Program-made: the position numbers and the translations under genes
The notes under the pieces: model-generated
Seen by the model: only the letters and a program-made list of their open reading frames with translations
Told to the model about the DNA's origin: nothing
Database searches by the model: none
Assembly: GCA_013995675.1 (NCBI GenBank)
Contig: VWRR01000011.1
Location: 1-64,000, forward strand
Length of the DNA: 64,000 nucleotides
Direction: 5' to 3'
DNA from: Cyanidiococcus yangmingshanensis
Taxonomy: Eukaryota; Rhodophyta; Bangiophyceae; Cyanidiales; Cyanidiaceae
Part shown: positions 16,242-21,136 of the stretch, piece by piece
Position numbering within the stretch: position 1 is the first letter of the stretch
Layout: every line of letters begins with the position of its first letter

Positions 16242-17530
16242 CGTGTTCGTGCTTCCCGTTCAGACTCAAAAAAGGAAGCGAAAGTTTCCAGCTAACTGCA
16301 TGACACGACGCTCTCTCGGGAAAACGTTGCCAAAATGATCTAGTGAAACAGAGCGTATTTGCCCACTTGAAGCGCAGCTCGTTCCGAGCCAAATGTCGGT
16401 GTTGCTACAGCGCTCGACGGATACTCCCCATCTAGCACAAAACGAACATAAAACCCAGGGGCGCTCCGTGGCCGTTTTACCCATATTGGTAACAAGCGTC
16501 CGCGGGTGCCAAGCAAACATACGCTATGCGGCGAAGATGCGTGAGCACGGGTGCCTGCCAGCGGAATGTATGCCTTGTCGGCAGGCTACAAAAAAGTATA
16601 TTGAGCGTTCAGTGGTCGACTCTGTCAAATGTCCGATTGCGGGCCGTTTCTGTGCAGCGAACAACGCTCAAACGGATCAGCTCGGTGCATGGCAAGCGAG
16701 GAGTAGCGCTATCCCTCAACCATAGCGTGCTCGCTTCAGGCCAGTTTGGTGGTATCCTATCGAACTGCAATACAATCAAATGAAATGACGATTCAAGGTC
16801 TCCAGAATGGGTGTCGTTTCTCCATAAACCTGCTTGCAACAGGCAATACCAACTTTGCGTTTTCCGAAACCGAGGCAGACAGAACATGTAGAGTGAGAGC
16901 TCGACGCTAGCGAAAGAGACCAAACACGAGCTTCGCCCGGAAGCATGAATCTCACCGCGCTTGCCGCTTGAATACTCATTCCTAAGTCGCTGCTTCCTGG
17001 CCAGTGTAATCTCAGGATATGAACGAGTTCGCTCCGACTGCATCTCGCTCGCTGAAACCCTCGCCGGCTTGGTTGCATCGGCGCTTGTGAAGCCGCCCGT
17101 GAAGCAGCAACAAGAGCAACCGTCGCATCCAGTTACGCAGCCAAGCACTTGAGCTGCTGCTGCTTACCTATGCACGGCCGTGCAGATGCTTGTGGCAATC
17201 TCGGGGGTTCCGCCGCCTCGGTCACATTTTGCGCGCGTCCGAGCATGTGCCGACGCGGGACACCGAAACGGAAATCGGCATGCGTCCAATCGCGCGCCAG
17301 GCGCAAACAGATAGATGCGCATCCACCGCAGGTCCGACCAACCACAATGCTCAGGTGGTCATCCAAACGTTTGTTATTCTAATGCAATATCGTTGGTGCA
17401 TTCTGAGAACTTGCCTGCGCCCAAAAAGATACGACCGACCACTGTGTGCGTCAACTGAGTAAACGAGTGGCCAACGCAACGTCATCATTCCTTGGTCGAA
17501 CGAGCATTCTGGCTAGAGACTGTCGTGGCT
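16242..17530. other. Intergenic, no gene seen
   Basis: About 1.3 kb between divergent genes (NAA15 to the left, hydrolase to the right), so it must hold both promoters. A minus frame of 179 codons at 16609-17148 starts at GTG and is unlike any protein I recognise. No tRNA is seen. Confidence 0.45.
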
Positions 17531-18928
17531 ATGGCCGCAGCAACGTGGCGTGCGGCAGAGTTTCTTCTGCGTCTGAACTTTGAGCGCTACGAAACAAGAC
17601 TTTGTGAGCGCTACATATACTTGGAGGCTGCCGAATCGCATAGAGCTATCGGCAAAGTCTTCGTTTCGACCGTTGACGAGACGTTTACAGAGGCCTTGCC
17701 GCGAGACGCCCCACCTGCACCGGTTGGTCGACGACGGCTCCTGGCAAGGGTCTTTGAGCATCCTGCGCGGAGTACAGAGGCTCATCAAGGAACCGGCGAA
17801 CCAGTTCGAGACACGCTCGGTGTGGTGGTGCTTATACACGGACTGTCGCCGTCAGGCCTTTGGGACAAGAGGATAGAAGCTGCTGCCCGCGCGATTGCTT
17901 GTCTCGGCTTTACAGCGGTTGTCCCGGACTTTGTCGAGTTTCGAGAATGCCGGATGAGCCTGAGTACGCTTGACGATATCGCATGGGCGGTCGTTGCGAT
18001 TGCACGAGGTTTCCGTCAAGATTCGGTGAGTCTATTTGCAGCTTGTATTGCGGCAGGCTACACACTCTGCGCGGTGCTGCGAAATGGCGAGCACGTTCGA
18101 CAGCACGTGCGGGCCGTCATGTGTATTGGACCTTATGCTGACGTCGAGGAGATGGTATGGTGCACGATGCTGAGTGAGACTGCGGACGCCTATGGCCGCA
18201 ATGCAATATTCTATAACTTTCTGCGCTTTTCCTCCCTGCTTGTGGAGCATGGCGATGCAGATATCACAAGCCTCGGCCCAGAATGGTTGCCACAATTGCT
18301 GCAGGCCTTGCGCCTCGCCCTGGAAGATTCCCATTTTTTGCGAGAGAATACAGAAATGGCGCAATTGCCGAGGTTTTTTCAGGAGCTTCACGACGAGGAT
18401 CGGCAGCGCCGCGGCAAGAGACTCGGGGCCGATGGTAAGCTTGGTGAAGTGGGCCAGAGTCTGGTTCAAGAGCTTTATGAACAGTTGCAGCATGACAAAG
18501 AATTTCGCAAACTCCACACTATGGCCATGCTTTCCCATCCAACTGTGCGAGAAATCATGAAAACTTCCCAGGCCATCGAAGCAGTCTCATCAGAAGCAAT
18601 CGATTTTCTGGTCGCGCTCGTGCATGGCGAACGAGACGATATCGTCCCGTGTCGAGAGAGTCGGCGCCTCTACTGCGCAATGCTCCGCAACAGAAGATGC
18701 AAGGTGCGGCCTCTCTGCGAAGTGACCTCGCTGCTGACCCACGGAGATCGCCAGCGTCTCAACTGGTGGACTGACATGCCCAAGATCGTCCGCCTTGTTC
18801 GGGTATTTTCCCAGTTTTTTGCATATGCCGCGCGCCCAAAAGCACCCACTGCCCAGCCGCTTCCCGCCATGAACGAATCAACCCGACACTGGCGAGCCGG
18901 CACCTCACATCCAGTCCGAACAAAGTAA
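17531..18928 (+). CDS. Alpha/beta-hydrolase fold protein, Cys at nucleophile site
   Basis: A 465-residue protein of alpha/beta-hydrolase type. The oxyanion strand-turn VVVLIHGLSPSG is at about 98-109, the nucleophile elbow is where SLFAACIAAG (about 167-176) lies, the acidic residue is in HGERDDIVP (D369/D370), and the His is in LLTHGD (H404). The usual GxSxG is not present; C172 stands in the nucleophile position, as in dienelactone hydrolases, or the site is inactive. The N-terminus (MAAATWRAAEFLLRLNFERYE) may be a membrane-associated or targeting helix. Substrate unknown. ATG 17531 is the first; the frame opens at a TTG at 17492. The last 109 codons and 93 bp of 3' flank are repeated exactly at 20718-21136. 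Confidence 0.65.
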   Translation: MAAATWRAAEFLLRLNFERYETRLCERYIYLEAAESHRAIGKVFVSTVDETFTEALPRDAPPAPVGRRRLLARVFEHPARSTEAHQGTGEPVRDTLGVVVLIHGLSPSGLWDKRIEAAARAIACLGFTAVVPDFVEFRECRMSLSTLDDIAWAVVAIARGFRQDSVSLFAACIAAGYTLCAVLRNGEHVRQHVRAVMCIGPYADVEEMVWCTMLSETADAYGRNAIFYNFLRFSSLLVEHGDADITSLGPEWLPQLLQALRLALEDSHFLRENTEMAQLPRFFQELHDEDRQRRGKRLGADGKLGEVGQSLVQELYEQLQHDKEFRKLHTMAMLSHPTVREIMKTSQAIEAVSSEAIDFLVALVHGERDDIVPCRESRRLYCAMLRNRRCKVRPLCEVTSLLTHGDRQRLNWWTDMPKIVRLVRVFSQFFAYAARPKAPTAQPLPAMNESTRHWRAGTSHPVRTK

Positions 18929-19021
18929 AGCACGCGATGGTCGCCTGCTTGAAATAATGGAGGCAGGTTGTATCAATCAGTGCGACTGAACATGATGGCC
19001 AGCGCGAACTGCGGGAGAAAT
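18603..19021 (+). repeat. 419-bp direct repeat, copy 1
   Basis: This block covers the 3' end of the hydrolase gene plus 93 bp of 3' flank. It is identical base for base to 20718-21136 (offset 2115). The two copies flank arsM in the same orientation. Sequence similarity stops abruptly on both sides. Confidence 0.97.
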
Positions 19022-19171
19022 AGACATCAAGGGCAAGAATCTCGAGTTCGGTGTAGTGATCATCGCGCTCAACAAAACGCATGCCGAGCGCTGGCCCTGA
19101 CGAATCGCATGACATGCATCACCTCTTGACCGATGCAAGGCGACTTTTGTGGACCTCACTAGGCAGAAGAA

Positions 19172-19345
19172 GGTCTTTCAGTACAGATGAGACATGATAA
19201 CCAAAATCGGATTCGATGATGATCCTCCAATATAGATGAGATATGACTACCAAAATCCAGCTAAACCACGGTGCTTCTGCATAGAGGAGATATGAAGACC
19301 AAAATCCGATTCGATGATGGTCCTTCTGCATAGATGAGACATTGT
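19172..19345. repeat. 49-bp tandem repeat upstream of arsM
   Basis: The word GA(T/G)GAGA(C/T)AT recurs at 19186, 19235, 19284 and 19333, exactly 49 bp apart, with CCAAAATC(C/G) following in the first three copies and TTCTGCATAGA in later ones. The array ends about 210 bp before the arsM ATG, so it may be part of its promoter region. A regulatory role is inference. Confidence 0.85.
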
Positions 19346-19558
19346 GGGCGCTTGATTCCTCGCACAGCCACTGCGGGGTTTCATGCCGGTCGCGCGACCC
19401 CGATTGCACACGCATCCGCGCACTGCAGTAACATGCACGTTCTATACCGTTCCACAATGTAGCGTTGTCGTTGTTGTTGTTCGTGACCGCGATCGTCGAC
19501 GACTCACGACAGTGATCACAAGCTGCACACTTGATCGTCTTTGAGGACTAGTGAGGCA

Positions 19559-20692
19559 ATGCCGTGCAGCTGTAAGAAAAGCGGTGAAACACCAGCCGGC
19601 GGAGGCTCCAACGGGACTATACGGGAACAGGTTGCGGACTATTATGGGAAAACGCTGCAGTCGGCTGCTGACTTGAAGACGAGTGCCTGCAAACTTGCGA
19701 CCTCCGTTCCGGAGTCTCATTGCGTAATACTCTCTCAGATTGCAGACGAGGTCCTGGAGAAGTTTTATGGTTGTGGATCGACGCTTCCGTCTGATGGCTC
19801 GATTGCTGGCGCCACGGTACTAGATCTGGGCTGCGGTGCAGGTCGTGACGTGTACCTGGCTTCGAAGCTTGTGGGTGAGAACGGAAAGGTCATCGGGGTC
19901 GACATGCTCGATAGCCAACTTGCAGTCGCGCAGAAATACGTCGAGTATCATGCGGAGAAGTTCTTTGGTGACCCGAAGCGGTCGAATGTTCGCTTTGTAC
20001 GGGGCCTCATCGAGGACCTGTCTTCGGCCGAGCCGGAAGGTATCTCGGACTCCTCTGTCGACATCGTGGTCAGCAACTGTGTCTGCAATCTGTCCACAAA
20101 TAAGCTGGCCCTGTTTAAGGAAATCTACCGCGTTCTGCGGGATGGTGGTGAACTCTACTTTTCCGACATGTACGCAGATCGGAGGCGGACCGCCGAGGCT
20201 CAACAGGACCCCGTGCTTTACGGAGAAGGTCTAGCCGGGGCATTGTATCTGGAGGATTTCAGACGGGTTATGAACGAGGCCGGATTCCGTGACGTCCGAC
20301 TAGTCTCGGTTGGTTCGATCGAGGTCAACGATCCCCAGTTGCGGAAACTGGTGCCAGATGTGCAGTTTTATTCGTGCACGTTTCGGTGCTTTAAAGTGCA
20401 AGGCCTGGAAGATACGCGGGAGGATTACGGCCAAAGTGCGACCTATCTGGGGGACCTCGGCGAATCCTTCAAACTCGATAGCTTCTATGCGTTCGAAAAA
20501 GGCAAACCTCAGCGTATCGACAGAAATACTGCAGAGATACTACGCCGAAGCCGCCTTGGGCAATGGTTCCGCGTAACTGATGAGCAGCAGCACCAGGGTC
20601 TGTTCCAGGACACTGCTTTGTGGACGCTCCTGCACGAGCCGCTTCCGTTGTTGGTGCAGCAGGTCATGCGCTCTGGCGTACTCAAGATGTAA
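19559..20692 (+). CDS. arsM: Arsenite S-adenosylmethionine methyltransferase, C224 replaced
   Basis: A 377-residue homologue of algal/bacterial ArsM and animal AS3MT, which methylates As(III) with SAM in the cytosol. The SAM motif [16 protein letters not shown] is at 87-102, with VIGVDM and a [10 protein letters not shown] segment in the expected places, and the FEKGKP segment of the C-terminal domain is present. Of the four cysteines needed in characterised enzymes (C44, C72, C174 and C224 in Cyanidioschyzon ArsM; C32, C61, C156 and C206 in AS3MT), C44 (TSACK), C72 (YGCGS) and C174 (SNCVC) are here, but residue 224 is Gly (YGEGLAGAL, codon GGT at 20228). An extra MPCSC stands at the N-terminus. 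ATG 19559 makes this numbering agree with the known enzyme. The stop is 25 bp from copy 2 of the 419-bp repeat. The family is thought to have entered red algae by transfer from bacteria. Confidence 0.93.
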
Positions 20693-20717
20693 TTGTTGGA
20701 TGACGATCTGGAAGGCA

Positions 20718-21136
20718 ATTTTCTGGTCGCGCTCGTGCATGGCGAACGAGACGATATCGTCCCGTGTCGAGAGAGTCGGCGCCTCTACTGCGCAATGCTC
20801 CGCAACAGAAGATGCAAGGTGCGGCCTCTCTGCGAAGTGACCTCGCTGCTGACCCACGGAGATCGCCAGCGTCTCAACTGGTGGACTGACATGCCCAAGA
20901 TCGTCCGCCTTGTTCGGGTATTTTCCCAGTTTTTTGCATATGCCGCGCGCCCAAAAGCACCCACTGCCCAGCCGCTTCCCGCCATGAACGAATCAACCCG
21001 ACACTGGCGAGCCGGCACCTCACATCCAGTCCGAACAAAGTAAAGCACGCGATGGTCGCCTGCTTGAAATAATGGAGGCAGGTTGTATCAATCAGTGCGA
21101 CTGAACATGATGGCCAGCGCGAACTGCGGGAGAAAT
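20718..21136 (+). repeat. 419-bp direct repeat, copy 2 (hydrolase 3' fragment)
   Basis: Exact second copy of 18603-19021. It contains a truncated 3' piece of the hydrolase gene (a 108-codon remnant ending at 21043) without start or 5' part, so it is a gene fragment. Because it starts 25 bp after the arsM stop, the hydrolase 3' flank may serve as the 3' end of the arsM transcript. Confidence 0.97.

Follow-up and report, generated by a model that had tools for sequence, protein, structure and literature searches.

The arsM-like gene of the red alga Cyanidiococcus yangmingshanensis encodes glycine at position 224, the place of an arsenic-binding cysteine, together with methionine at position 204. 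The two substitutions, Cys224 to Gly and Val204 to Met, are coupled among related proteins, recur on phylogenetic trees, and lie in a block of codons 204–228 that is both divergent and constrained, while Cys44, Cys72 and Cys174 stay unchanged. From these comparisons, the reading that the recurrent coupled switch rebuilds the arsenic site in an ArsM paralogue may be right, and we hold it with about even confidence.

The arsM-like gene and its product

The window, that is, the whole analysed stretch of 64,000 nucleotides (contig VWRR01000011.1), contains the features collected in Table 1. The crystallised relative of the encoded protein is CmArsM of Cyanidioschyzon sp. 5508 (PDB 4fr0, 4fsd, 4kw7 and 6cx6, and 5jx7 for its C224A mutant). 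The Cyanidioschyzon ArsM chains in the PDB (4fr0 and others) align with the window protein without gaps up to residue 371, with 77% identity in the structural match, and have Cys at positions 44, 72, 174 and 224. The two proteins share the MPCSC N-terminus, Cys44, Cys72, Cys174 and the predicted fold, but CmArsM has Cys224 and Val204. The first-pass annotation had read codon 224 as Gly in the presence of Cys44, Cys72 and Cys174; reading of the open frame and alignment with the PDB sequences bear this out.

Table 1. Coordinates of the arsM-like gene and associated features in the window
Feature	Position	Strand	Remark
arsM-like gene	19559..20692	+	SAM methyltransferase, 377 aa; ATG at 19559, stop 20690–20692
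Codon 224, GGT (Gly)	20228..20230	+	replaces As-binding Cys; within YGEGLAGAL
Codon 204, ATG (Met)	20168..20170	+	Val/Ile in 306/307 scorable listed Cys224 relatives
Cys44 codon	19688..19690	+	kept
Cys72 codon	19772..19774	+	kept
Cys174 codon	20078..20080	+	kept
Divergent block, codons 204–228	20168..20242	+	holds Met204 and Gly224; relative to the C4 copy
Region of homology with the C4 arsM copy	19024..20667	+	upstream sequence plus most of the CDS
Left 419-bp perfect direct repeat	18603..19021	+	brackets the arsM stretch
Right 419-bp perfect direct repeat	20718..21136	+	brackets the arsM stretch

Pfam methyltransferase domains were detected in the window protein. Its predicted fold is intact (model pLDDT 88.7), and all 13 best PDB matches of the model are ArsM or AS3MT, the closest being 6cx6 with a TM score (target) of 0.97. 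The score with the NCBIfam arsenite methyltransferase profile is 151 bits against a curated cut-off of 263; the CmArsM-like protein P0003 likewise scores below it, with 162. Chen et al. 2017 (PMC5552862) admitted as ArsM those proteins that have at least three of the four conserved cysteines and a SAM domain, and reported Cys72, Cys174 and Cys224 as conserved in the resulting set of 343. The window protein has three of the four cysteines and the SAM domain.

In the first protein search (best 120 of 6801 relatives), all 120 proteins have Cys at residues 44, 72 and 174; at residue 224, 117 have Cys and three, namely P0002, P0005 and P0026, have Gly. P0002 is CCYA11G3211 of C. yangmingshanensis from another assembly; 99% identical to the window protein, it is its nearest relative among the listed matches and departs from it at residues 55, 307 and 355 only. 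The two have in common Met204, Gly224 (GEG) and an odd C-terminus. A sequencing error at codon 224, raised in the first-pass annotation, is thus very unlikely. Error or chance as an explanation of the whole pattern can be given next to no weight, as P0002, P0005 and P0026 all carry both Gly224 and Met204.

Other proposals of that annotation fared differently. Cys176 or the N-terminal MPCSC had been put forward as a stand-in thiol; both also occur in Cyanidioschyzon ArsM, which has Cys224, and so are not compensating gains. Nor does the alignment contain an adjacent cysteine that takes over from Cys224, as a shift of the arsenic-binding residue to a neighbouring position would imply. The statement that the rest of the protein is intact holds for the open frame and the fold, but not for the C-terminal CysCys tail, which is gone, or for a few conserved residues, which are altered. 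Neither the loss of this tail nor Met204 had been recorded in that annotation. Simple decay would not account for the site.

Recurrence of the Met204/Gly224 pair

Relatives were pooled from three overlapping protein searches (best 120 of 6801, 4738 and 137 matches), giving 344 proteins. A row was scored if it had Gly-Glu at positions 222–223 and a residue at position 204, which left 319 rows. Among the 25 unscorable ones, 12 read Val204 and Cys224, and the other 13 are truncated or cannot be aligned, none of these 13 having Gly in column 224. Met204 is present in all 12 Gly224 proteins of the scorable listed relatives. The 307 Cys224 rows have Val204 in 250 cases, Ile204 in 56 and Met204 in one (Fisher 7e-21 for the association of Met204 with Gly224, kinship among rows being ignored). 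The only non-Cys state of residue 224 in the 319 rows is Gly. The single Met204 bearer among the 307 Cys224 proteins, P0114, is a possible intermediate.

The Gly224 set includes P0002, P0005, P0026, P0266, P0342, two proteins of Coemansia and five of catfish. P0005 is 90% identical to P0003 and is therefore treated as algal. The catfish proteins (P0293, P0324, P0334, P0344 and P0345) come from five species, all have the Met/Gly pair, and are named arsenite methyltransferase.

Nine of the 12 Gly224 proteins were found solely by the third search (best 120 of 137), whose query itself has Met204 and Gly224. This bias should not create the association, because Met204 is very seldom found in the Cys224 matches of that query, and because under this query a Gly224/Val204 protein should outscore a Cys224/Val204 one. 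The second search, whose query does not extend to residue 204 or 224, added 114 proteins (best 120 of 4738), none of them with Gly224; 103 have Cys224, ten a gap, and one, a misaligned row, Asn.

The Met204/Gly224 variant is rare in the sequence collections searched. A protein search of viral contigs yielded no Gly224 protein, and neither did scans of these contigs with two DNA patterns, which say little since the Cys224 pattern was also empty. A search of bacterial genomes with P0005 added no Gly224 protein; of its seven loci, six read Val or Ile at 204 with Cys224, and one (L007) was not matched by the motif. A plasmid search with P0342 gave 525 records and likewise added none; of two records examined, L012 is Val204/Cys224 and L013 was not matched by the motif. 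Searches of the open-access literature turned up no description of the pair.

By parsimony, the pair is reconstructed as having arisen repeatedly, about seven times. On a FastTree of 320 rows, built with columns 204 and 224 left out, Gly224 requires at least seven changes and Met204 eight. The Gly224 changes span two algal lineages, Coemansia fungi, catfish, P0026, P0266 and P0342. In all seven independent pairs the two residues change together (sign test, p 0.0156, the smallest value attainable by this test with seven pairs). With columns 44, 45, 204, 205 and 224 left out, the best tree again gives seven pairs, and on supported branches six of six change together (p 0.031). An IQ-TREE reconstruction with 33 rows has seven pairs, of which a mean of 6.9 are co-directional and none opposite. 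For several lineages the row closest on the FastTree is a Val/Ile–Cys protein: P0003 for P0005, P0019 for P0026, P0265 for P0266, P0318 for P0342, and P0340 for the Coemansia proteins. The catfish proteins have P0342, itself Met/Gly, as their nearest other row, and the count of seven may therefore include reversals in place of separate gains.

Three other candidate companions of Gly224 were rejected. Loss of Cys45 changes with Gly224 in about 2.7 of six supported pairs, with none opposite (p 0.25). A CC pair within the first 70 residues occurs in none of the 12 Gly224 proteins (one of them a fragment) versus 292 of the 307 listed Cys224 proteins; Cys45 is, however, already missing from P0003 and P0004, which are algal relatives with Cys224. 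Loss of the C-terminal CC goes with Gly224 in about 3.4 of six pairs and against it in 0.1 (p 0.25), this CC being absent from 8/12 Gly224 and 35/307 Cys224 listed proteins. Tyr205 is at background level (about 0.9 of six pairs).

Second arsM copy, divergent block and apparent relocation

A six-frame search of the genome (12.07 Mb, 20 contigs) found one other arsM, L004 on contig C4 (502010–503123, minus strand). It encodes Val204, Cys224 and the CysCys tail, but near codon 195 its length differs by one base, which breaks the frame; this break may be genuine or may stem from an error in the assembly. The intact arsM of this assembly is the Gly224 copy. To look for a Cyanidiococcus copy with Cys224 that is annotated separately, the first part of the C4 copy (197 aa) served as the query; no listed match exceeded 64% identity (best 120 of 4738; candidates of about 108–345 aa only).

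The two copies differ at 42 bases over 369 comparable codons, and 16 of these differences fall within 96 nt, a clustering matched by none of 20,000 random placements. In codons 204–228, dS is 0.81 and dN 0.13 (w 0.16), compared with dS 0.063 and w 0.24 in codons 1–203, and dS 0.031 and w 0.70 in codons 229–370. The block has an excess of synonymous changes (p 0.002), which means that it diverged under protein-level constraint, that is, purifying selection. The near-identical flanks suggest recent gene conversion that either spared or replaced the block.

At the protein level, residues 203–234 are more divergent than the rest in both algal Gly/Cys pairs, the window protein with the C4 copy (6/32 vs 13/318, p 0.004) and P0005 with P0003 (7/32 vs 28/319, p 0.03). 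In the four Cys/Cys pairs counted, the same residues are less divergent than the rest, significantly so in one only, the C4 copy with P0004 (1/32 vs 70/317, p 0.01); the others are C4 with P0003 (4/32 vs 70/318), P0003 with P0004 (4/32 vs 86/318) and P0003 with P0017 (7/32 vs 85/238).

This concentration of divergence around codon 224 in both algal Gly224 proteins would also be expected if they were one old paralogue, converted elsewhere toward the Cys224 copy of its own species; the algal cases would then count once. Met204, Gly224 and the missing CC tail are indeed common to the window protein and P0005. Residues 211 and 219, however, follow lineage, being Thr/Val in the window protein, the C4 copy and P0004, and Ser/Ile in P0003 and P0005, and the AU test on the 33-row IQ-TREE rejects a single clade for the two algal cases (p 6e-5), though conversion would have the same effect. 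We regard a single algal origin as very improbable.

The window copy appears to sit in a relocated stretch. The arsM stretch (19022–20717) lies between two identical 419-bp repeats, which derive from the 3' end of the ORF at 17492–18928 and its downstream sequence; this ORF has no Pfam match. The homology to the C4 copy stops inside the gene at 20667, at about codon 370, and the new C-terminus is encoded by a 50-bp junction. The lack of any mismatch across the 419 bp suggests either a relocation more recent than the split between the two arsM copies or a process that keeps the repeats identical. The neighbouring genes encode a NatA auxiliary subunit (PF12569; 13761–16241, minus strand) and an AMPK beta subunit (PF16561, PF04739; 22061–23341, minus strand).

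The relocation bears on a different reading, in which the arsM of the window is a displaced and shortened duplicate on its way to losing function, with Gly224 as one of several damaging changes. The CysCys tail, present in 107 of the best 120 of 6801 relatives and in P0003, the close relative of CmArsM that extends to such a tail at 400 aa, was lost at the junction with the repeat. Among the same 120 listed relatives, Ala94 in the SAM motif occurs in two (one is P0002), Arg210 in P0002 alone, and Cys55 (19721–19723) in none; the last is a strain-specific extra cysteine, P0002 and the C4 copy having Arg at this position. The w of 0.70 in codons 229–370, the inactivity of CmArsM C224A (PMC3877260), and the argument of a Yellowstone study (PMC11662350) that conserved residues were lost from some Galdieria arsM copies point the same way. 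Against this reading stand the full-length open frame in two assemblies, the purifying selection in the block of codons 204–228, and the presence of Met204 with Gly224 in other lineages too, which decay would not yield. We consider this reading rather unlikely. Even so, the window copy itself may be growing weaker, while the Met/Gly type in general would not amount to decay.

Proposed arsenic site and its implications

In the rebuilt site that we propose, Cys174, Cys72 and perhaps Cys44 would hold a trivalent arsenical, or some soft ion resembling it, and the enzyme would still methylate this substrate. Met204 would fill the place of the Cys224 side chain, either as a thioether ligand or by packing beside the site. 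In the predicted model, residue 204 is near the end of strand 193–206, and Cys174 follows strand 167–173; the ends of these strands presumably meet at the active site, as in the class I methyltransferase fold. Since Met alone, and never Leu or Phe, is seen at position 204 with Gly224, we favour a role for its sulfur, though this is not proved.

Published mutants count against a rebuilt site, although they are single mutants. PMC3877260 reports that the C174A and C224A mutants of CmArsM are inactive on both As(III) and MAs(III), that C72A retains activity on MAs(III), and that C156S and C206S of human AS3MT act on neither substrate. According to PMC10190100, C174 and C224 of CmArsM are 2.2–2.3 A from As(III).

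The Gly224/Met204 enzymes could instead have abandoned arsenic for another substrate, for example a different soft element, an organic thiol or a selenol. Cys224, which binds As(III) in CmArsM, is replaced only by Gly among the scorable listed relatives, and in both algal Gly/Cys pairs the residues near 224 change faster than those elsewhere in the gene. The known arsenic binders Cys72 and Cys174, however, are each kept in 12 of the 13 Gly224 rows (window included). At each position the one exception is a gap, and the two rows concerned are catfish proteins 260 and 327 aa long. Such retention speaks for a substrate that is still a soft ion bound by thiols. Column 44 is Cys in eight of the 13 rows, and four catfish rows with Ala44 have Cys one column on. 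We judge a complete departure from arsenic unlikely.

Departures from the four-cysteine arrangement have been reported. The ArsM of Bacillus sp. CX-1 is reported to need only two cysteines (PMC6950371) and thus, like the window protein, has fewer than four conserved ones. It is the reverse case, as it keeps Cys145 and Cys195, presumably the equivalents of Cys174 and Cys224, whereas the window protein loses Cys224 and keeps the other three. TtArsM of Thermus thermophilus has a single cysteine, and two His residues were proposed to coordinate arsenite (PMC8649762). This resembles the window protein in takeover by a residue other than Cys, but TtArsM is a distant family member and uses His instead of Met, at other positions. 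Human AS3MT (PDB 8xt7) has homologous fold and chemistry, but its Cys206 is the equivalent of position 224, unlike the Gly of the window protein.

More tentatively, the Met204/Gly224 proteins might represent a second design of arsenite methyltransferase, in which the thioether of Met204 substitutes for the thiolate of Cys224. This design would have evolved repeatedly, on about seven occasions, among algae, fungi, fish and other lineages, perhaps with a preference for methylated arsenicals or for a different soft element.

Single mutants are the ground on which Cys224 (human Cys206) is regarded as indispensable for the methylation of arsenic (PMC3877260). Nature seems to have removed it repeatedly, always with the same second change in the cases found. 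If the Gly224 enzymes work, the rule that arsenite is held by cysteines 174 and 224 would need revision, and arsM surveys demanding Cys224 would overlook them. The swap of residues 204 and 224 offers a direct, testable prediction. According to a published survey (PMC9812998), the copy number of arsM may explain why Cyanidium and Cyanidiococcus differ in As(III) tolerance. Since the only other arsM found in this alga is frame-broken, its arsenite tolerance and methylation would provide a natural test of the Gly224 enzyme.
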